A DNA stretch of 55,018 bases, from IMG/VR virus record IMGVR_UViG_3300032220_001325, positions 1-55,018 of that record. One strand, given 5' to 3'. The notes under the pieces are model-generated. The model made no database searches. It was not told the origin of the DNA and saw nothing but the letters and a program-made list of their open reading frames with translations. This document shows positions 4,226 through 25,265 of the stretch, piece by piece. Source of the DNA: a virus. How positions within the stretch are numbered: position 1 is the stretch's first letter; every line of letters begins with the position of its first letter. Made by a program: the position numbers and the translations under genes.

Positions 4226-4594
4226 ATGGCTACTAAGTATTATTTAGATTGGAAAGAAGTTGAAGAGGAATGGATAGGAACAGACTATATTTGGATAGAT
4301 GTTGCTATCTTGATTGAAGATACTGTAGGAGAAATATTAGGCGGTGATTACACTTTAGCTTTAGATGAAATGGATCCATGGGAATCCATGAAAAAAAAGT
4401 TAAAGGATAAAAGAATCGAGGAGGAAAAAATTGATGCCCTACTTGAAGTTATAGTTTCTGTAAAAGGAGAAGAAAAAAAATTATCCAAGAAAAAAGATAC
4501 TTCAACTAAAATATTAATTAAAGATATACAAAAAACTTTAGACAAGTACAGCAAAAATAAGGTGTACGTCAAAGCAGAAATTAAAGGAAGATAA
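4226..4594 (+). CDS. Hypothetical protein, 122 aa, charged
   Basis: Not recognised. The N-terminal half (MATKYYLDWKEVEEEWIG) is acidic and the C-terminal half is rich in Lys (KGEEKKLSKKKDT), suggesting a soluble, largely helical protein. It lies directly after the large collagen-like fibre gene, and its stop codon overlaps the next ATG as TAATG, so the two small genes are probably translated together. By position it may be an assembly factor or minor structural protein, but nothing in the sequence shows this. Confidence 0.7.
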   Translation: MATKYYLDWKEVEEEWIGTDYIWIDVAILIEDTVGEILGGDYTLALDEMDPWESMKKKLKDKRIEEEKIDALLEVIVSVKGEEKKLSKKKDTSTKILIKDIQKTLDKYSKNKVYVKAEIKGR

Positions 4595-5256: not shown

Positions 5257-6408
5257 ATGCCAAATCCTTTAGATTTAACCAATGTCAAGGTATCCGATAC
5301 TTTTCCAAGACTTGTCCAAACGGACGGGACTGGAGGTTATTATGATGGATTAGGAAATCCACTTAATATAGGAGGCGGTAGTGGTGCAGGACCAACAGGA
5401 TCTACTGGACCAACTGGACCAATCGGACCAACTGGAGCTACAGGTTCTTCTGTTAGCTTGGATACATGGCAATGGAATTCCATAGCTACTAATGGAAAAC
5501 TAATTACAGATAACGGGTTTTTAGGAAATGGTGAGGTAGTAATACAAATTACTGAAATATCCAATTCTGGTATTAATTATGGGAATTATCTTGCTTCATT
5601 AAAATCCGGGTCTATTATTTTATTAGACACACCAGTAGGCACATACACATATTTAGTATCGTCGGACCCAACAGATAATGGATCTTATTTTAATATTGGT
5701 GTATCACCTCTTCTAATAGCACAATCATCATATACTCCTCCTGTTAATACAGGCATAAAAGTATCTTTTATTCTCAGAGGATCTGGTGCTACTGGACCAA
5801 CAGGAAATAGCGGAGTTACTGGATCTACAGGACCAACAGGATCTATTGGAAACACAGGTCCTACCGGATCTGGATCAACAGGTGCTACTGGAGCAACTGG
5901 TGCTACTGGTGCTACTGGATTAGGAATTACTGGTGCTACTGGTCCAACAGGTGCTACTGAATTTTATTACCAACAAGCCCGTCCGTCTCCAGATCCAATA
6001 AACCTGGGAGCAAGATGGCTCGATAGTGACAACGGTATAGAGTATGTTTGGGTATTCGATGGATCTCAGTATCTTTGGATGCAGCCTACGCAATTAGGGA
6101 ATGTTACATATCAAGCTTCGTCCATCAACACATCATCATATTCGCCTACATTTTCATACGAGTACTATGGGGTAATATATATGGGAGGGATCTGTACTGT
6201 TACTTTACCCCTTGCAACCGTCCCAGATGACGAAGGGAGATTTATCAATATTGCAGACGAAGTAGGTGGGATTAGTGGAGGAGGAAGGGGTATTTTAGTA
6301 CAGGGACAGAGCGGACAGCTTATCAATGGTCAAACTTCCGTTCTTATGAAGATTGACTATATGAGTCTGAACTTTATGTTTCGAAATAATTCATGGAAAA
6401 CAATATAA
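5257..6408 (+). CDS. Collagen-like fibre protein, 383 aa
   Basis: The N-terminus ([24 protein letters not shown]) leads into a Gly-rich hinge and two collagen-like tracts (residues about 45-65 and 178-233) of GPTGSTG type that flank a globular insert. After the second tract comes a module with [19 protein letters not shown], which recurs in the collagen-like protein at 7643-9427 as [19 protein letters not shown]. The C-terminal 90 residues are beta-rich ([17 protein letters not shown]). Shared modules between neighbouring fibre genes point to duplication and shuffling. The likely role is a tail fibre or head decoration protein contacting the host surface (inference). Confidence 0.8.
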
Positions 6409-15201: not shown

Positions 15202-15269
15202 TTGAAACTTTCTTTTACATTAGCGGTATCAAATAAAACAAACGTTCTTTAATTTACTATTCTTTATTT

Positions 15270-15480
15270 CTTGAAGCGGTCTAGAAGGTTACTTCAAACA
15301 ATAACTACGAACGCTAAAAAGATATCTCGAAAGAGAATCTTATAGCACCAAGATCCTAGTACTGCTATAGATAGGACGCCTGAAAGGGAGAAATCAGTAG
15401 CTCGGTTTAATTCACATGACTAGAAATGCTGGAACGATTACCTACCGTAAGGAGGGACCACTTTTTAGAGATTTCTCAAG
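15270..15480 (+). ncRNA. Y-RNA-like structured RNA, module 1
   Basis: The ends pair as in the other modules: lower helix CTTGA/TCAAG (15270-15274 with 15476-15480), internal loop AGCGG opposite GATTTC, and upper helix TCTAGAAGGT pairing with ACTTTTTAGA plus flanking bases near 15457-15470, followed by the fixed ACTTC at 15291. The roughly 160-nt body contains a GAAA-capped hairpin (AAGATATCTC/GAGAATCTT) and other helices but no recognisable tRNA. It lies directly upstream of the first Ro60-like gene, where bacterial Y RNAs are usually encoded. No ORF covers the interval. Identity as a Y RNA is inferred from structure and location. Confidence 0.6.
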
Positions 15481-15503
15481 AAAAAAAGAAAATTAAAATA
15501 AAT

Positions 15504-15675: not shown

Positions 15676-17286
15676 ATGTCAACATTAAGCGAATTCGGAA
15701 CAAAAAAATCTGCTGATAAAAGAAAGCACGTCAGTGAGGAAGTGACAAATTTTATGGGAGGTACCTCTTATAAACTTTCTCCTATCCAGGCATTAAAGAT
15801 CGTAGCTGCGTCTTCTATCTTTGGTGAGCCACAATACTACAGAGATGGTTTAAAAGCCCCAGCGAATATAAAAACATTGTCTGAGTACTCTATCTTTGCA
15901 GAGATGTTTACGAGCGATAAATCTGCAGTTCAAATTTTTGAAGAAGCTATCGATGCAGCTTTGGTATCCGATTTTAAGGGAACATTGGATCTTGCTCTTG
16001 AGTTAAGAACTGAATACCTTATGAGATTGAACCCTTCGGTTATCTTTATGCGTGCTTCTATGAGTGAGGCAAGAAAGGTATTCAATGAATTGAATCCTGG
16101 TTACATGAAGGAGATCGGTAAGAAAATCGCAGAAAGACCTGATGATCTTACAAATCAATTCGATTACTATATGTATAAGAATGGATCTAAGGCAAAACTT
16201 CCTTCTTTGATTAAAAGAACATGGTCTGAGCGTCTTGCTGAATATAGCAGATACCAATTGAATAAGTACAAGGGAAAGAAACTCATCGACCTTGTTCGTA
16301 TTTCTCACGCATCGAATGATGATATTAGTGAGCTTATGAAAACTGGTAAGCTAGAAGTTAAGGACACAGAAATGACTTGGGAAACTCTTAAGTCTGCTGG
16401 TAAAAACTGGACAGAGATCTTAGATCAAATCCATATACCACACATGGCTCTTTTAAGAAACCTACGTGGTATCTTTACTGAAATTTCAGACCGTGATGTT
16501 ACAATCAAGGTTTTAAATCAGTTAAAAGGCGGTGTTTTAAAAGGAAAGCAATTCCCTTTCCGTTATTGGTCAGCTTATAAAGCAATCCAAGGGGCTTCTA
16601 TTAATAACAGTCAGTTGGTTTTAGATGCTCTTGAAGAATGTATTGACATCTCAGTTGCTAATATGCCTAAGATGAAAGGTAGAGTAGCTTGTCTTTCTGA
16701 CAACTCAGGTTCTGCTTGGGGATCTTGCACAAGTGAATACGGAACAGTAACTGTTGCAGAAATAGCTAACCTTTCTTCTTTAATTACAGCTCTACAGTCA
16801 GATCAAGGAGAAGTTGGAGTATTTGGTGATAAACTTTCTTTGAAAGAAGTTTCTAAACGAAATGGATTATTAACTCAGCTTCAAGAAACTTCAACTAGAG
16901 GAAGATCTCAAGGTGGTGGTACTGAAAATGGTATTTGGATTTTCTGGGATAAAGCAATCAAAGAAAAAATCCACTATGATACAGTATTCATCTACTCTGA
17001 TATGCAAGCAGGCCACGGTGGATTATTTGGTTACCCACACACAGTAGGTAAATCTAAATATGGACATAAAAGAGGAGATACGTATGTAGATGTACTAGCA
17101 ATGGTACAAGCATATAGAGAAGAAGTTAACCCAAAGGTTAATGTATTCTCGGTTCAAGTAGCAGGATATAATAACTCGGTTTTACCAGAGAATCTTTATA
17201 GAGGAGCGATCCTTGCAGGATGGACAGGTAAAGAGCCAATTTTTGCTAAGGCAATTATAGATACTTGGGATTCAATAGAATCTTAA
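15676..17286 (+). CDS. Ro60-like TROVE domain protein with vWA domain, paralogue 1
   Basis: A 536-aa protein. Residues about 20-330 are helical repeats typical of the TROVE ring; residues about 335-530 form a von Willebrand A domain with an intact MIDAS: DNSGS at residues 342-346, a Thr in GGGTENG, and the Asp of YSDMQAG. Ro60 proteins are ring-shaped RNA chaperones that bind misfolded RNA in the central hole and Y RNA on the outside, and in bacteria work with exonucleases such as PNPase. Two Y-RNA-like modules precede it, and a second paralogue lies at 21628. It has its own terminator. Expected role: quality control, storage or processing of structured RNA during infection (inference). Confidence 0.88.
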   Translation: MSTLSEFGTKKSADKRKHVSEEVTNFMGGTSYKLSPIQALKIVAASSIFGEPQYYRDGLKAPANIKTLSEYSIFAEMFTSDKSAVQIFEEAIDAALVSDFKGTLDLALELRTEYLMRLNPSVIFMRASMSEARKVFNELNPGYMKEIGKKIAERPDDLTNQFDYYMYKNGSKAKLPSLIKRTWSERLAEYSRYQLNKYKGKKLIDLVRISHASNDDISELMKTGKLEVKDTEMTWETLKSAGKNWTEILDQIHIPHMALLRNLRGIFTEISDRDVTIKVLNQLKGGVLKGKQFPFRYWSAYKAIQGASINNSQLVLDALEECIDISVANMPKMKGRVACLSDNSGSAWGSCTSEYGTVTVAEIANLSSLITALQSDQGEVGVFGDKLSLKEVSKRNGLLTQLQETSTRGRSQGGGTENGIWIFWDKAIKEKIHYDTVFIYSDMQAGHGGLFGYPHTVGKSKYGHKRGDTYVDVLAMVQAYREEVNPKVNVFSVQVAGYNNSVLPENLYRGAILAGWTGKEPIFAKAIIDTWDSIES

Positions 17287-19275: not shown

Positions 19276-19380
19276 TCAGGAGTGGCGGAAGCGAGATCTC
19301 TGCAGGGATCCGATAGAAAGACGCTAGGGTAATCTACCCAAGAACGAAAGTTCATGTTGGTGCAAGTCCAGCCTCTTGTC
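19276..19380 (+). ncRNA. Class II tRNA-like RNA with expanded D-loop
   Basis: Acceptor CAGGAG/CTCTTG (19277-19282 with 19373-19378), T-arm GTTGG-TGCAAGT-CCAGC, variable arm GAAC-GAAA-GTTC and an AGACGC D-arm end. The D-loop carries an extra GATC...GATC hairpin and the anticodon arm is reduced to GGGTA-ATC-TACCC without a 7-nt loop. It cannot decode; it may be a decayed tRNA-Leu or a tRNA mimic. Confidence 0.5.
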
Positions 19381-19385
19381 CTAAT

Positions 19386-19504
19386 AATTCCTTGTCCCTC
19401 TTAAGGTGTGGCAGGAAAGATCTATCGATCTATAAACGGACTTTGCAGGTTCAAATCCTGGGTCTTCCACTAATCCGGAAGTATGTCCGTGAGGAATTTT
19501 TTTC
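19386..19504 (+). ncRNA. Structured RNA with T-arm and acceptor mimic
   Basis: Outer helix AATTCCT/AGGAATT (19386-19392 with 19492-19498) is followed by a T-run, so it doubles as a terminator. Inside are hairpins CCTT...AAGG and GATC-TATC-GATC, and a helix ACGGAC/GTCCGT enclosing a tRNA T-arm (GCAGG-TTCAAAT-CCTGG) and an acceptor-like hairpin CTTCC...GGAAG. The T-arm precedes the acceptor 5' strand, which is the permuted order seen in the Y-like modules. Confidence 0.5.
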
Positions 19505-20294: not shown

Positions 20295-20954
20295 ATGGCA
20301 AGAAAAGAAAAGAAGTATCATTACATCTATAAGATAACATGTCTTAAGAATAATCGATACTACATTGGAATGCACTCTACAGATAACTTAGAAGATGGTT
20401 ATTTTGGAGGTGGAAAAAGAATTAAAAATTCTGTTAAGAAGCATGGTAAAGATGCTCACAGAAAGGAGATTCTAGAGTTCTTTGAAAATAGGGATTTGCT
20501 AAGACAACGAGAAGTTGAATTAGTAAATGAGGAATTATTAAACGATCCTTTATGTATGAATCTTGCATTAGGAGGTGAAAGCTTCAGTCCATTACTTATA
20601 AACGGAGAAAAACACCTAGAGATCTCTATATTAGGTGGTATTGCAATGAAAAACAAAATATTGGAAGATAATATTTATGCAATAAAACATGGAAAAAATT
20701 CTTCTAAAGTGATGAAAAAAAATCACGAAGAAAGAAAAATTAGGTATGATACTTTTACAGGAAAAAATCACTCCAAAGAAACAAAAGAAAAAATAGGGAC
20801 TAAGAATTCAATATCGCAAAAAGGTAATAAAAATTCACAATTTGGAACCATTTGGATTCATCACAAAGAAAGAGGAGACAAAAAAATAAATCCTGACGAT
20901 TTCTCAAAATTTTTTAAAGAAGGCTGGGAAAAAGGAAGAAATAAAATCAAGTAG
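20295..20954 (+). CDS. GIY-YIG homing endonuclease
   Basis: A 219-aa protein with an N-terminal GIY-YIG nuclease domain: YHYIYKIT (residues 8-15) and RYYIGMHST (21-29) form the motif, followed by the catalytic region with Arg and Glu (HRKEILEFF, RQREVELVNEE). The C-terminal half is basic, with KNHSKETKEKIG and KGNKNSQFGTIWIHH, repeats typical of the DNA-binding tails of phage Seg/Mob-type homing nucleases. It is a free-standing mobile gene lying between tRNA-Asp and a permuted tRNA-Phe module, and its last codons overlap that module. Translation is probably controlled by the hairpin at 20255-20292. Confidence 0.88.
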   Translation: MARKEKKYHYIYKITCLKNNRYYIGMHSTDNLEDGYFGGGKRIKNSVKKHGKDAHRKEILEFFENRDLLRQREVELVNEELLNDPLCMNLALGGESFSPLLINGEKHLEISILGGIAMKNKILEDNIYAIKHGKNSSKVMKKNHEERKIRYDTFTGKNHSKETKEKIGTKNSISQKGNKNSQFGTIWIHHKERGDKKINPDDFSKFFKEGWEKGRNKIK

Positions 20955-21084
20955 CGAAGTTGAGAGTTACTTCAATTTTTTCTGAAACAAAAAAGGCCTG
21001 GGTTCGAATCCCAGTGCGGGTGGAGACACTCGTATAGTTTAGCGGTAGAACTAGATAACACTCTCGATACTATTCTCTTGATTT
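20944..21084 (+). ncRNA. Y-RNA-like module 3 with permuted tRNA-Phe(GAA) body
   Basis: Lower helix AAATCAAG/CTTGATTT (20944-20951 with 21077-21084), internal loop TAGCGAAG opposite ATACTATTCT, upper helix GAGAGT/ACTCTC (20962-20967 with 21060-21065), then TTACTTC. The body is a tRNA in permuted order: anticodon arm TTTTT-CTGAAAC-AAAAA (20977-20993), variable loop, T-arm CTGGG-TTCGAAT-CCCAG, acceptor 3' strand TGCGGGT, a 6-nt loop GGAGAC, then acceptor 5' strand ACTCGTA and D-arm GTTTAGCGGTAGAAC. The acceptor pairs at all seven positions. The junction is between D-arm and anticodon arm. The first codons of the element overlap the GIY-YIG stop. Confidence 0.72.
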
Positions 21085-21166: not shown

Positions 21167-21169
21167 CAA

Positions 21170-21325
21170 AGTCTGGGAGTAATTAACCCAGTACCTGAGA
21201 GGTTCGAAACTCTCGATTGACTATGGTGTAGTGGCGCACAGAGAAACGGAGTATGAGGCACGTCTCGAAAGAGCATCAATCTCAGAAATGGGATTCAGGG
21301 ACCGGCTTCGAATACCGGTAAGTCA
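21170..21325 (+). ncRNA. Two overlapping tRNA-like remnants or mimics
   Basis: The first part pairs AGTC/GACT (21170-21173, 21219-21222) around CTGGG...CCCAG and a T-arm-like GAGAG-GTTCGAAA-CTCTC, with no D-arm. The second shares the GACT strand, has a D-arm-like GGTGTAGTGGC, a long insert and a T-arm-like ACCGG-CTTCGAATA-CCGGT ending AAGTCA. The two folds are mutually exclusive at GACT. Neither has a usable anticodon loop. Confidence 0.4.
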
Positions 21326-21332
21326 GCAACAT

Positions 21333-21408: not shown

Positions 21409-21568
21409 AAATCGGTAGCAAAGATAAAGTTACTTCGAAATCCATCATAAGGAAGAGGTCGCGGTGTTCGATTCCCGCTCCCGGCACCAGTTTGATTTTT
21501 TTAAATGCCGGGATAGAGCAGTGGTAGCTCGCTTAAAAGAAAAACACTTTATCAACTTCCTCCGATTT
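21409..21568 (+). ncRNA. Y-RNA-like module 4 with permuted tRNA-Met(CAT) body
   Basis: Lower helix AAATCGG/CCGATTT (21409-21415 with 21562-21568), internal loop TAGCAA opposite AACTTCCT, upper helix GATAAAGT/ACTTTATC (21423-21430 with 21546-21553), then TACTTC. The body runs: CAT anticodon loop (ATCATAA), T-arm GCGG(T)G/CCCGC with a bulged T, acceptor 3' strand TCCCGGC followed by ACCA (21486-21489), a 17-nt linker, then acceptor 5' strand GCCGGGA (21507-21513) and D-arm GAGC...GCTC. All seven acceptor positions pair. The encoded CCA is notable in a molecule whose 3' half lies upstream. Confidence 0.72.
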
Positions 21569-21627: not shown

Positions 21628-23256
21628 ATGGCAAAGTTCAGAAATCAGAATCTCAGAAGTTCGCTTGCTAGTATGCAGCCAAAATCTGAGTTGGTTGAGG
21701 CGGTAGCAATACCAAAGCCAGACACCACAAATCGTCAAGGTCATGCAGCTTATTCACTTGATAAGTGGTTAAAGCTCTTGACAATGTTAAACACTCTAAA
21801 GCTAGAGAATCAGTTCTATCGTTCTGAAAATGAAACGATGAAGGAATTAAAAACCCTAGTTGATGGATGTGCTAAGGAAGACACATACTTAACTGCACAG
21901 TGTATAGTATACTCTCGTTGCGTTGGTGAAGGTATGCGTTCAATTAACCATCTTGCAGCTTCTTATTTAGCACCACACTGTGCTGGACAAGATTGGGCTA
22001 AAAGATTCTACGGTCTTTGGAACAAGAAAACAAAGTCAGGAGGTACATTATTCCGTCCAGATGACATGGCAGAAATACTTGCATGTTTCTCTGCAATGAA
22101 TAAGACAGCAGTAACTAACTCAATGAAAAAAGGTTTCCGTTCTGCTCTTGAGAGTATGGATGCTTACTCTTTACTAAAGTACAAGAGTTCATTGATCGAC
22201 GTTATCAACCTTGTTCACCCAAGTCCAAAGAATGCGAAAGCTATCGTTGAAGTAAACGGAGAAAGAATTTCAGCTATCGACGCAATAATGAAAGGATTAT
22301 CTGTTTCAGCTGATACTTGGGAAGTTGCACAATCTGACGCAGGTCAAGAAGTTGCAAAAGCAGTTAAGGAGGGTAAGATTGATAAGGACGAAGCAGAAAA
22401 GATCCTAAAGGAAGCTAAGGCTGAAAACTGGGATTCATTATTAACCGAAGGAAAACTAGGTATAATGGCTGCTTTACGTAACATCAGAAACATCCTTAAG
22501 ACTGATGCAAAATCTAAAACAGTTGATTCTCTTTGTCAATTGGTTTCAGATCCAGAAGCAATCAGAAAGGGTAAGATTATGCCATATCAAATGGATTTAG
22601 CACACGAGGTGACTGTTTCAGAATTCAGCAATGCTGATTCTCGTAAAATAGCTCAAGCTTTGTTAAAAGGATTTGAAGAAGCAATTCCAAACCTTGCTGA
22701 AATGCTTCCAGGAAGAACACTAGTAATGGTTGACTTCTCAGGATCTATGGGTACACCAATGACAGATGGAACAAGATCTGGAAAACGTTACAGAAGCACT
22801 TGTATGGATAAAGCAGCTTTAATAGCGGCAACTATCGCAAAAGGTACAAATGCTGATGTTATCAGATTCGGTTCTTCAGCAGAATACGTGAATTGGAACG
22901 CTAACTCAGACGTTTTCAGTATCGCTAAGAACATGAAAAGAGATATGGGAGGAACTTCACTAGATTCTGCTTGGAGAGAAGCTCAAAGATCTGGACGTAA
23001 ATACGACCGTGTTTTCATCCTATCTGATAACGAATGTAACAGAGGATCTAGCTACAACTCTTACATGAGCTATGTAAAAGCAACCGGAAGCCCATACGTT
23101 TACTCTGTAGACTTAGCAGGTTACGGTACTACACAACTCGCAGGAGATAAAGTTAGATACTACTACGGATACGGTTACACTATGTTCGATGACATCGCTA
23201 AAAGCGAATTCAATCCGAACTATCATCTAGAAAAGGTGAAACAAATCGTCATCTAA
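21628..23256 (+). CDS. Ro60-like TROVE domain protein with vWA domain, paralogue 2
   Basis: A 542-aa protein. Residues about 30-355 form the helical TROVE ring (RQGHAAYSLDKWLKLLTMLN near the start is typical). The vWA domain from residue 365 has a complete MIDAS: DFSGS (369-373), Thr in MGGTSLDSAW and Asp in ILSDNECN. It differs strongly from paralogue 1 over most of its length, so the two are old duplicates or separate acquisitions. It lies in the middle of the tRNA-like RNA modules, with module 4 ending 60 nt before its ATG. A TATTTTTG box at 21568-21575 could serve as its promoter. Confidence 0.9.
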   Translation: MAKFRNQNLRSSLASMQPKSELVEAVAIPKPDTTNRQGHAAYSLDKWLKLLTMLNTLKLENQFYRSENETMKELKTLVDGCAKEDTYLTAQCIVYSRCVGEGMRSINHLAASYLAPHCAGQDWAKRFYGLWNKKTKSGGTLFRPDDMAEILACFSAMNKTAVTNSMKKGFRSALESMDAYSLLKYKSSLIDVINLVHPSPKNAKAIVEVNGERISAIDAIMKGLSVSADTWEVAQSDAGQEVAKAVKEGKIDKDEAEKILKEAKAENWDSLLTEGKLGIMAALRNIRNILKTDAKSKTVDSLCQLVSDPEAIRKGKIMPYQMDLAHEVTVSEFSNADSRKIAQALLKGFEEAIPNLAEMLPGRTLVMVDFSGSMGTPMTDGTRSGKRYRSTCMDKAALIAATIAKGTNADVIRFGSSAEYVNWNANSDVFSIAKNMKRDMGGTSLDSAWREAQRSGRKYDRVFILSDNECNRGSSYNSYMSYVKATGSPYVYSVDLAGYGTTQLAGDKVRYYYGYGYTMFDDIAKSEFNPNYHLEKVKQIVI

Positions 23257-23295: not shown

Positions 23296-23299
23296 TAAA

Positions 23300-23409
23300 A
23301 TATCCAAGAGATCGGCGGGTGGATACGCAGCTTTGAATGGAGCAGGAGGTAATGACAAACTGGTTCGACCAGGAAAAACTTCGAATGGGTTCGAATCCCA
23401 GCTTGGATA
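23300..23409 (+). ncRNA. Class II tRNA-like RNA without a clear anticodon
   Basis: Acceptor TATCCAAG/CTTGGATA (23300-23307 with 23401-23408), T-arm around TTCGAAT, and a long arm CTGGT-TCG-ACCAG. The D-arm and anticodon regions do not fold into a normal cloverleaf and no 7-nt anticodon loop is found. It may be a decayed tRNA or a mimic related to the neighbouring modules. Confidence 0.45.
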
Positions 23410-23417
23410 CAAAAAGA

Positions 23418-23430: not shown

Positions 23431-23439
23431 TTAAAATAT

Positions 23440-23567
23440 TATCGGGTAGCAACGTAAAGGTTACTTCTTAGCTCAGCGGTTGAGCAATTTACTTTAATTA
23501 AATCGGTCGCGGGTTCGATTCCCGCAGAGGCGCGCAAGCGTTACACCTTTGCAATTTTCTCCTGATA
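23440..23567 (+). ncRNA. Y-RNA-like module 5 with ochre-anticodon tRNA-like body
   Basis: Lower helix TATCGGG/CCTGATA (23440-23446 with 23561-23567), internal loop TAGCAA opposite AATTTTCT, upper helix GTAAAGGT/ACCTTTGC (23454-23461 with 23545-23552), then TACTTC. The body is in normal order: D-arm GCTC...GAGC, anticodon arm ATTTA-CTTTAAT-TAAAT with anticodon TTA (reads UAA), T-arm GCGGG-TTCGATT-CCCGC. The acceptor 5' strand is the module's own TACTTCT pairing imperfectly with AGAGGCG. Because UAA is the main stop codon here, active suppression is unlikely and a non-decoding role is more plausible. Confidence 0.65.
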
Positions 23568-23573
23568 AACTTA

Positions 23574-23713
23574 TTGAAGCAATAGCAATCTAAATCGTTA
23601 CTTCGACTGTTAATCGAGAGGTCATGGGTTCGAGTCCCATATCCAACTCTCAGAGTCTGGATTAGCTCAGCTGGCAGAGCGCTTATTACGATTGGAAATT
23701 TTCTTTGCTTTAA
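23574..23713 (+). ncRNA. Y-RNA-like module 6 with permuted tRNA-Asn(GTT) body
   Basis: Lower helix TTGAAGCAA/TTGCTTTAA (23574-23582 with 23705-23713, one G-T), internal loop TAGCAA opposite AAATTTTCT, upper helix AATCGT/ACGATT (23593-23598 with 23688-23693), then TACTTC. The body: anticodon arm TTCGA-CTGTTAA-TCGAG, T-arm ATGGG-TTCGAGT-CCCAT, then a closed acceptor-like hairpin ATCCA-ACTC-TCA-GAGT-C-TGGAT (23641-23662), then D-arm GCTC...GAGC. With a triloop closing the acceptor end there is no free 3' end to charge. Confidence 0.72.
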
Positions 23714-23717
23714 CTTA

Positions 23718-23862
23718 TTGGAACGTAGCAAGATTAGAGTTACTTCGCATACATAGGTTCGAATCCTATATTTGCCTTCGGGCAGATTAGACAAGTGGAT
23801 AAGTCGATCGTCTCATAAACGATTATACAATGATTACTCTCTATTCGATATTCTCGTTCTAA
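23718..23862 (+). ncRNA. Y-RNA-like module 7, permuted CAT-anticodon body with UUCG cap
   Basis: Lower helix TTGGAACG/CGTTCTAA (23718-23725 with 23855-23862), internal loop TAGCAAG opposite GATATTCT, upper helix TAGAGT/ACTCT(CT)A, then TACTTC. Order inside: T-arm ATAGG-TTCGAAT-CCTAT, acceptor-like hairpin ATTTGCC-TTCG-GGCAGAT (23770-23787), D-arm GAC...GTC, anticodon arm ATCGT-CTCATAA-ACGAT. Here the opening is in the variable region instead of between D-arm and anticodon arm, and the acceptor is sealed by a stable UUCG tetraloop. Confidence 0.75.
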
Positions 23863-23867
23863 TTTTA

Positions 23868-24022
23868 TAGTCAGATGGCGGAATGATAACAACCCCGTTC
23901 TAGAGGTAAAAATAATGTGGTTAGAATCCACTACGGGGTCAATGTTAACTTGGTAGACGCTAATGAGGATAACTGCTAACGTGGTACGCTTATCCATACA
24001 GGTTCGAGTCCTGTTCTGACTA
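23868..24022 (+). ncRNA. Nested tRNA-like RNA
   Basis: Outer helix TAGTCAGA/TCTGACTA (23868-23875 with 24015-24022) closes a class II tRNA-like fold with T-arm ACAGG-TTCGAGT-CCTGT and D-arm parts GGCGGAA and GGTAGACGC. Inserted in the D-loop is a second small fold with its own acceptor-like helix ACCCCGT/ACGGGGT (23892-23898 with 23933-23939) and T-arm GTGG-TTAGAAT-CCAC. No normal anticodon loop is clear in either. Immediately followed by module 8. Confidence 0.45.
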
Positions 24023-24024
24023 CA

Positions 24025-24162
24025 AAAGATGATAGCAATGGACAAGGTTACTTCAGCGTGAATAGCTCAGTTGGTTGAGCGTTTATTTTGGGAATAAAAG
24101 GTCGCAGGTTCAACTCCTGCTTTATGCAATAAAAATACACCTTTCCGATTTTCTTCATCTTT
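24025..24162 (+). ncRNA. Y-RNA-like module 8 enclosing a complete tRNA-Pro
   Basis: Lower helix AAAGATGA/TCATCTTT (24025-24032 with 24155-24162), internal loop TAGCAAT opposite CGATTTTCT, upper helix GGA(C)AAGGT/ACCTTTCC, then TTACTTC. The body is an intact tRNA-Pro in normal order (24056-24128), so RNase P and 3' processing could free it. This copy links the module family directly to a conventional tRNA gene. Confidence 0.65.
24056..24128 (+). tRNA. tRNA-Pro(TGG), inside module 8
   Basis: Acceptor GCGTGAA/TTTATGC pairs throughout with two G-T pairs; anticodon arm TTTAT-TTTGGGA-ATAAA; T-arm GCAGG-TTCAACT-CCTGC; A-T rich stems compared with Pro at 18910. Probably functional if released from the surrounding stem. 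Confidence 0.8.
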
Positions 24163-24168
24163 TACTTT

Positions 24169-24695: not shown

Positions 24696-25265
24696 GTGAA
24701 AATTATATTCTTAGATCACGATGGAGTAATTTGTCTTTCACAACAATTTGGAGGAAGATTCAAAAAGCAGATTAAGGCTAGAAAAAAGCTTTCGCAATCT
24801 GTTATGGAATTTCACGTGAGCTGTAGATTTGATAATTTTGATAAGAAAGCAATTAAGGTTTTAAACGAAATCTTAGAAGAAACAGGAGCAGAAATAGTAG
24901 TATCGTCGGATTGGAAAAACTGGGCAACTGTTCAAGAGATGGGGGAATACTACGAAGAGCAAGGAATCATTAAAAAACCTATTGACTTTACTCCATGGTC
25001 ATATACTCTCCCTAAAACAATTGAATGGCATCCAGACTGGGATCTAGAAGGATCAAGAAGTCTAGAAATTCAAGAATGGCTAAAAAATCATCCAGAAGTT
25101 ACTAATTGGGTGTCTATTGACGATCTAGATATGAGTTTTAAAGAGATATCTTCTAATAGAAGTGGTACAGGATGGGGGTTAACTAACTTCGTACACACTC
25201 CAAGAATTACCGAGGGAATTAAGCAAATCGGTATAAAGGAAAAGATATTGAAATTTCTTAAATAA
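24696..25265 (+). CDS. HAD-like hydrolase of the RNA-repair (SAK) type
   Basis: GTG start directly after the cyclophilin stop; 189 aa. HAD motif I is MKIIFLDHDGVICLS (nucleophile D7, D9), motif II VSSDWKNW, and the acidic motif SIDDLDM. The layout with VSSxW and W.SIDDxD is typical of HAD phosphatases that accompany ligase and kinase domains in so-called Swiss-army-knife RNA repair proteins, and of related stand-alone phage proteins. A phosphatase acting on RNA ends would fit this tRNA- and Ro60-rich region, but substrate is inferred. Confidence 0.75.
   Translation: MKIIFLDHDGVICLSQQFGGRFKKQIKARKKLSQSVMEFHVSCRFDNFDKKAIKVLNEILEETGAEIVVSSDWKNWATVQEMGEYYEEQGIIKKPIDFTPWSYTLPKTIEWHPDWDLEGSRSLEIQEWLKNHPEVTNWVSIDDLDMSFKEISSNRSGTGWGLTNFVHTPRITEGIKQIGIKEKILKFLK

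Follow-up and report, generated by a model that had tools for sequence, protein, structure and literature searches.

The permuted tRNA genes of Cyanidioschyzon merolae and of archaea give working tRNAs that are made by way of a circle. Crystallography showed that YrlA, a bacterial Y RNA, is a circular permutation of a tRNA (PMC11472068); the tRNA enzymes DusA and TruB modify it (PMC8394870). In Deinococcus, a Y RNA tethers Rsr to PNPase (PMC8394870), while the work on Salmonella YrlA raises the competitive inhibition of an anticodon nuclease as a role (PMC7790460). Concerning phages, a putative Rsr and putative Y RNAs were reported in Listeria phage CKA15 (PMC12282133), and TROVE proteins were reported in jumbo phages (PMC7824862).

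The locus considered here belongs to a stretch of 55,018 nucleotides of viral DNA (IMG/VR record IMGVR_UViG_3300032220_001325), analyzed whole and referred to as the window. Positions 23717-23863, on the plus strand, hold a permuted tRNA on a stem of two helices, P1 and P2; a preliminary description, made from the sequence alone, had placed it at 23718-23862, off by one base at each end. The parts appear in the order: P1 strand, UAGCAA, P2 strand, UUACUUC, T arm, UUCG-closed acceptor, D arm, CAU anticodon arm, and 3′ strands of P2 and P1 (Table 1). The internal loop of the stem has UAGCAA on one side and GAUAUUCU on the other (UAGCAA/AUAUUCU as RNA), and both ends of the tRNA part meet in the tRNA variable region. 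The T arm, UUCG-capped acceptor, D arm and CAT anticodon arm listed in the preliminary description are all present, as judged by sequence and covariation, with the acceptor ATTTGCC-TTCG-GGCAGAT found at 23770-23787. The opening in the variable region that it proposed, with the anticodon arm on the 3′ side, agrees with the covarying fold and with RNAalifold.

Table 1. Features of the window related to the element at 23717-23863.
Feature	Positions	Strand	Evidence
Y RNA-like element with permuted tRNA, opened in variable region	23717-23863	+	Covariation, 16 homologues; stem scan
Outer helix P1, 9 bp, 5′ strand (partner 23855-23863)	23717-23725	+	Two-sided changes in 9/9 pairs
UAGCAA internal loop, Ro60-2-associated class	23726-23731	+	Kept in relatives; class tracks Ro60 paralogue
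Inner helix P2, 5 bp, 5′ strand (partner 23839-23843)	23735-23739	+	Covariation analysis
UUACUUC, directly 3′ of P2 5′ strand	23740-23746	+	Invariant in 16/16 sequences
T arm, ATAGG-TTCGAAT-CCTAT	23753-23769	+	100% paired; 3/5 pairs co-vary
Acceptor, ATTTGCC-TTCG-GGCAGAT, 7 bp, one G.U, UUCG-closed	23770-23787	+	Stem co-varies; loop not conserved
D arm, GAC..GTC, GG in loop	23790-23805	+	Covariation analysis
Anticodon arm, ATCGT-CTCATAA-ACGAT (triplet CAU, 23814-23816)	23807-23823	+	5/5 stem pairs co-vary; loop 32, 33, 37, 38 conserved, 34-36 free
P2 3′ strand, UUCGAUAUUCU internal loop, P1 3′ strand	23839-23863	+	Alignment and covariation
Sister with tRNA open at position 26; order anticodon arm (GUU), T arm, capped acceptor, D arm	23574-23713	+	14 covarying pairs
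Sister opened inside acceptor stem, UUA anticodon arm (ARAGORN: tRNA-Stop)	23439-23568	+	18 covarying pairs
Sister, unpermuted tRNA (UGG) on stem	24024-24163	+	17 covarying pairs
Sister: anticodon arm, T, acceptor, D on stem	20944-21084	+	Stem scan
Sister: anticodon-like arm, T, acceptor with long AU-rich loop, D	21409-21568	+	Stem scan
GCGG-class, 172-nt non-tRNA insert	15267-15483	+	Stem scan
GCGG-class, short loop	15501-15570	+	Stem scan
GCGG-class, short hairpin loop, within main tRNA array	30002-30083	+	Stem scan
Inside-out form: open tRNA-like RNA with stem 29406-29452 as internal GCAA-capped (GNRA) arm	29381-29502	+	Comparison of eight copies
TROVE/Ro60 protein 1 (Ro60-1), 536 aa; proposed GCGG-class partner	15676-17286	+	Pfam TROVE 6.4e-11
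TROVE/Ro60 protein 2 (Ro60-2), 542 aa, Ro60 vWA domain; proposed UAGCAA-class partner	21628-23256	+	Pfam TROVE 2.3e-10; PDB profile; Foldseek

Relatives were collected through the neighbouring Ro60 gene and through RNA patterns, and 16 sequences of the type opened in the variable region were aligned. With the proposed structure, standard pairs made up 94.4% of the pair cells, two-sided compensatory changes occurred in 27 of 34 base pairs, and the covariation score was 0.627, versus values not higher than 0.138 when the partners were slid by 1–3 columns. None of 500 shuffles matched the observed pairing and covariation, and RNAalifold, given no structure, predicted the identical permuted fold from the same alignment. 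The folding energy of the single 23717-23863 sequence is not significant (z = −1.56), so the case for the fold rests on comparison, by which the permuted fold is taken as established. An integron-like or DNA-repeat reading was rejected because the base pairs covary. A DNA similarity search against named phages returned ordinary tRNA matches only, and Rfam at gathering thresholds called only two modules, both as tRNA.

In the family of 23717-23863 the frame of the anticodon loop is kept, with positions 32, 33, 37 and 38 nearly fixed (0.34 bits), while positions 34-36 vary (1.5–1.8 bits) and can be considered free: ten triplets were found in 15 orthologous sequences, and the CAU of the window is not conserved. 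The unpermuted sister at 24024 behaves likewise, with UGG, UAG, AGG, CAG and UCA among its orthologues. The cap loop is different in nearly every relative; UUCG occurs in the window only, two relatives have UCCG (L010) and UUCU (L012), and the others have loops of about 3–15 nt. Concerning the conservation of the anticodon-like arm and of the UUCG hairpin, on which the earlier interpretation depended, the outcome is mixed: both are kept as structures, but neither the UUCG loop nor the triplet is. In the sister family of 23574-23713, GUU is kept in 8/9 sequences and the acceptor stem changes freely.

The stem was searched for with a script that required UUACUUC, the inner helix, the outer helix and the linker motif, and nothing else. 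Nine copies were found in the window versus none in 60 Markov-randomised windows; on the minus strand there were no copies in the window or in any locus of the first set. The nine inserts are tRNAs opened at four positions, two short loops and one 172-nt insert that is not a tRNA. The openings are in the variable region (23717), at position 26 (23574, 20944 and 21409), within the acceptor stem (23439) and at the usual tRNA ends (24024). Comparing homologous loci for the permutation types, each opening type shows its own covariation, the counts of pairs with two-sided changes in Table 1 (14, 18 and 17) coming from separate alignments for the position-26, acceptor-stem and unpermuted types. Two permutation points joined to the same stem had been proposed: the stem is indeed common, but there are four points among the nine closed-stem copies, plus an inside-out form. 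There is strong support for the accompanying suggestion that what is conserved is the stem and not the tRNA connectivity, as the same stem closes four covarying tRNA openings, short loops, the 172-nt insert and a piece of 23S rRNA.

The insert of 15267-15483 is itself conserved, with 150–182 nt and the pattern GGTTTAATTC...GACTAGAAAT...GGAACGATTACC. It had no match in Rfam or in E. coli; mimicry of 16S rRNA was suspected and was not supported. The 23S rRNA piece occurs in Chryseobacterium genomes (L151, positions 5997-6228, L153 and L177), in an insert closed by the same stem, and is identical to E. coli 23S in 34/34 nt. TROVE is encoded in the three genomes, in L151 and L153 on the same stretch. 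This suggests that the Chryseobacterium RNA is a Y RNA mimicking rRNA.

The inside-out form at 29381-29502 is a tenth copy of the stem, in a tRNA-like RNA with ordinary ends. Eight copies of this form were found on seven TROVE-bearing contigs (the window and six others), and the P1 and P2 sequences differ between most of them with the pairing kept. ARAGORN made no tRNA call at 29381-29502, and the folding of this single sequence did not recover the proposed arm. This form is less secure than the others because MAFFT and single-sequence folding handled it poorly, and it rests on comparison.

Concerning the protein partner, a candidate not contemplated in the preliminary description, the gene of Ro60-2 ends about 460 bases upstream of 23717-23863. 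Its product gives a PF05731 match above the cut-off and a vWA_Ro60 match slightly below it, and at the sequence level its profile hits Xenopus Ro60 (1yvp) and further TROVE structures. The best 13 Foldseek matches of its model (pLDDT 61, moderate confidence) were all Ro60, Rsr or TROVE proteins, including a Thermus phage Ro60. As modelled, then, the product of 21628-23256 is a protein with TROVE and vWA domains and the Ro60 fold. Ro60-1 is 49.5% identical to gp540 of Bacillus phage G.

Both TROVE genes of the window are flanked by stem elements, and wherever a locus has both, the elements and the Ro60 gene share a strand. The class of internal loop follows the Ro60 paralogue: GCGG occurs in 6/6 loci with relatives of Ro60-1 only, including Bacillus phage G; UAG(C/U)AA or UAGCGA goes with relatives of Ro60-2; and both genes occur together in the window and in one relative, as do both loop classes. 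Among contigs fetched by RNA pattern alone, TROVE was present on 23 of the 27 that bore the element, versus 8 of 40 pattern-matched contigs with no recognised element (Fisher, 1.9e-7). The latter eight all came from the first RNA pattern (the second gave 0/24), and at least two of them (L068 and L075) carry the inside-out form. Within the sequence scanned, no element was recognised at 6/12 loci of Ro60-1 relatives. By these comparisons the RNAs are genetically linked to Ro60. The basal stem with its internal loop is conserved and covarying, with the loop class following the paralogue, and the stem is probably gripped by the phage's own Ro60-type protein; since shared descent of the linked genes may inflate the match of loop to paralogue, this binding is something that we infer. 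An interpretation of the shared flanks as self-splicing, or as a permuted intron-exon arrangement, was dropped because the stem closes non-tRNA inserts and its loop tracks the Ro60 paralogue.

The presence of TROVE beside the RNAs, the match of loop and paralogue, and the 23/27 contigs with TROVE point to a phage Y RNA rather than a tRNA gene. We consider it very probable, from sequence comparison, that 23717-23863 is such a Y RNA, with the stem as the predicted binding site of Ro60-2 and the rest as a displayed tRNA mimic; the assignment to this family is also an addition to the preliminary description. As with bacterial and phage Y RNAs in general, the element neighbours a Ro60/Rsr (TROVE) gene, and its effector part mimics the T, D and acceptor arms with a sealed acceptor, as indicated by covariation and RNAalifold. 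It is, by the same kind of comparison, related to YrlA, without being YrlA as defined (T arm, sealed acceptor, D arm and no anticodon arm): the parts come in that order, but the D arm is followed by an anticodon arm. The YrlA model of Rfam (RF02553, gathering score 69 bits) reached at best 29.4 bits in the window, on the sister at 23600-23711, and none of the listed matches lay on 23717-23863. The highest-scoring YrlA-like relatives, at 50.2 bits, come from another phage, where they are part of an array immediately adjacent to TROVE.

As to how the element may work, Ro60-2 would grip the two-helix stem through the UAGCAA/AUAUUCU internal loop and UUACUUC, and the rest of the RNA, with T, D and anticodon arms and sealed acceptor, would act as a tRNA mimic. 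By analogy with known Y RNAs, Ro60 would thus display a stable tRNA look-alike, uncharged because the sealed acceptor precludes aminoacylation. Since the tRNA fold accepts the stem at several places, the RNA ends can shift while the fold stays as it is. The mimic may in turn occupy proteins that recognise tRNA: it would either tether a nuclease or a modification enzyme to Ro60, in the way YrlA does, or serve as a decoy for host anticodon nucleases; this step is less certain than Ro60 binding.

The tethering version, in which the mimic would link Ro60 to host PNPase or tRNA-modifying enzymes and redirect RNA decay during infection in the manner of RYPER, is quite possible, if somewhat short of an even chance. 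It corresponds to the role studied for Deinococcus Rsr with Y RNA, YrlA is a substrate of DusA and TruB (PMC8394870), and the T and D loops are intact in 23717-23863. Against it, no PNPase, RNase PH domain or RtcB gene was found in the phages searched, so that a RYPER-like machine would need a host enzyme, and the conserved anticodon arm and the several permutation forms are left unexplained.

The other version, a Ro60-protected decoy or competitive inhibitor of host anticodon nucleases, with the varied triplets reflecting an arms race, is a possibility that we hold tentatively; inhibition of this kind was raised for YrlA in Salmonella (PMC7790460). Where YrlA has none, the element has a complete anticodon arm, canonical at 32-33-37-38 and free in its triplet, and this retained arm favours a role in which the anticodon arm matters. 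An RNA ligase domain is present in 13/23 such phages. Close downstream of the array, 24696-25265 encodes a HAD-family protein with a domain of the Swiss Army Knife RNA repair proteins. The ligase domains and this gene fit a setting of RNA damage, and the latter counts in favour of the decoy. Against the decoy, no nuclease is known at the locus, and one sister family keeps GUU in 8/9 sequences.

A very unlikely alternative is that 23717-23863 is a permuted tRNA gene, whose stem would be cut, the circle joined, the acceptor loop opened and CCA added to yield a functional tRNA-Met or tRNA-Ile, as happens in red algae. No tRNA arm is missing and the T and D loops are intact; the element lies within a phage tRNA array, and relatives have RNA ligase domains. 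Nevertheless, the triplet varies on an otherwise conserved body, which is not what a decoding anticodon does; the cap loops vary in length and sequence, with no discriminator and no CCA; non-tRNA inserts have this stem too; and the loop class of the stem tracks the Ro60 paralogue. With a loop sealing its acceptor, the unprocessed transcript can neither accept an amino acid nor take part in translation. From the comparison, it can be said that the element is not a gene for a decoding tRNA. That these RNAs are tRNA debris, produced by recombination and decaying in a phage tRNA array where odd fragments do occur (e.g., 23296-23410 and 23872-24023), has a negligible probability, since every helix shows strong compensatory changes between distant phages, which is unexpected of debris and refutes it.

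Returning to the Y RNA interpretation, a more general system of display might be conceived, although we would not rate it as probable. One Ro60-binding stem, recognised by each paralogue through its loop, would present many RNA mimics, the phage tRNA versions serving as bait for host RNA-targeting defences. The mimics would comprise tRNAs opened at four or more points with free anticodons, the inside-out tRNA, short hairpins and the bacterial 23S piece.

Bacterial Y RNAs are known mainly as one type of tRNA mimic, YrlA, and here one phage has about ten of them in several topologies, along with two Ro60 paralogues and the loop classes that match these. The role of Ro60 and Y RNAs outside animals, long open, becomes directly testable, as natural variants separate the predicted Ro60-binding stem from the displayed RNA. 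There is also a consequence for annotation, because programs that look for tRNAs mistake these RNAs for ordinary or suppressor tRNAs (24056-24128 and 23462-23533). The latter, called a UAA suppressor tRNA by ARAGORN, is the element opened in the acceptor, and its triplet varies in relatives. Such RNAs are unannotated in the named phages Bacillus phage G, csAssE-Sib and crAss001. In Bacillus phage G (L039, 2780-2935 and 4254-4937), upstream of gp540, the script located five elements and visual inspection added another near 4465; a permuted tRNA is present in one, and none is annotated in the record. In csAssE-Sib (L043, 4751-4882), an annotated tRNA-Lys may be a Y RNA, since a Ro60-type stem encloses it and a Ro sixty-related protein is annotated next to it. 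Other tRNA-related sequences of the window are a tRNA-Leu-like gene at 23872-24023, with what looks like a second tRNA-like mini-hairpin (T arm and acceptor) in its D loop, and further tRNA-like pieces that have T-arm-like stretches and no ARAGORN call (23296-23410, 19278-19370, 19400-19470 and 21169-21330).

The kind of RNA described here is already known, as YrlA is a circular permutation of tRNA and Ro60 and putative Y RNAs have been noted in phages (PMC11472068, PMC12282133, PMC7824862). The literature searched, key subscription papers being outside its scope, contained neither multiple permutation points nor loops matched to paralogues nor an inside-out form. The permuted tRNA genes of C. 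merolae and archaea share with the phage element the circularly permuted order of tRNA parts, but in the phage the triplet and the cap loop vary and the stem is common to non-tRNA inserts. The CKA15 and jumbo-phage reports have in common with this locus a Ro60-type gene adjoining tRNA genes, with putative Y RNAs in CKA15, but not the series of permuted tRNAs, the covarying stem or the pairing of loop class with paralogue. The Rsr-Y RNA-PNPase particle of Deinococcus radiodurans (RYPER) likewise combines a Ro60-type protein with a Y RNA as scaffold (PMC8394870), while the phage has many Y RNAs and two Ro60 paralogues, with no PNPase found. YrlA (RF02553, PDB 6CU1) resembles the element in its basal stem beside an Rsr/Ro60 gene and in the order of T arm, sealed acceptor and D arm (PMC11472068, PMC8394870); the phage element differs in retaining a full anticodon arm, in the sequences of the internal loop and UUACUUC, and in occurring with several permutation points per genome.
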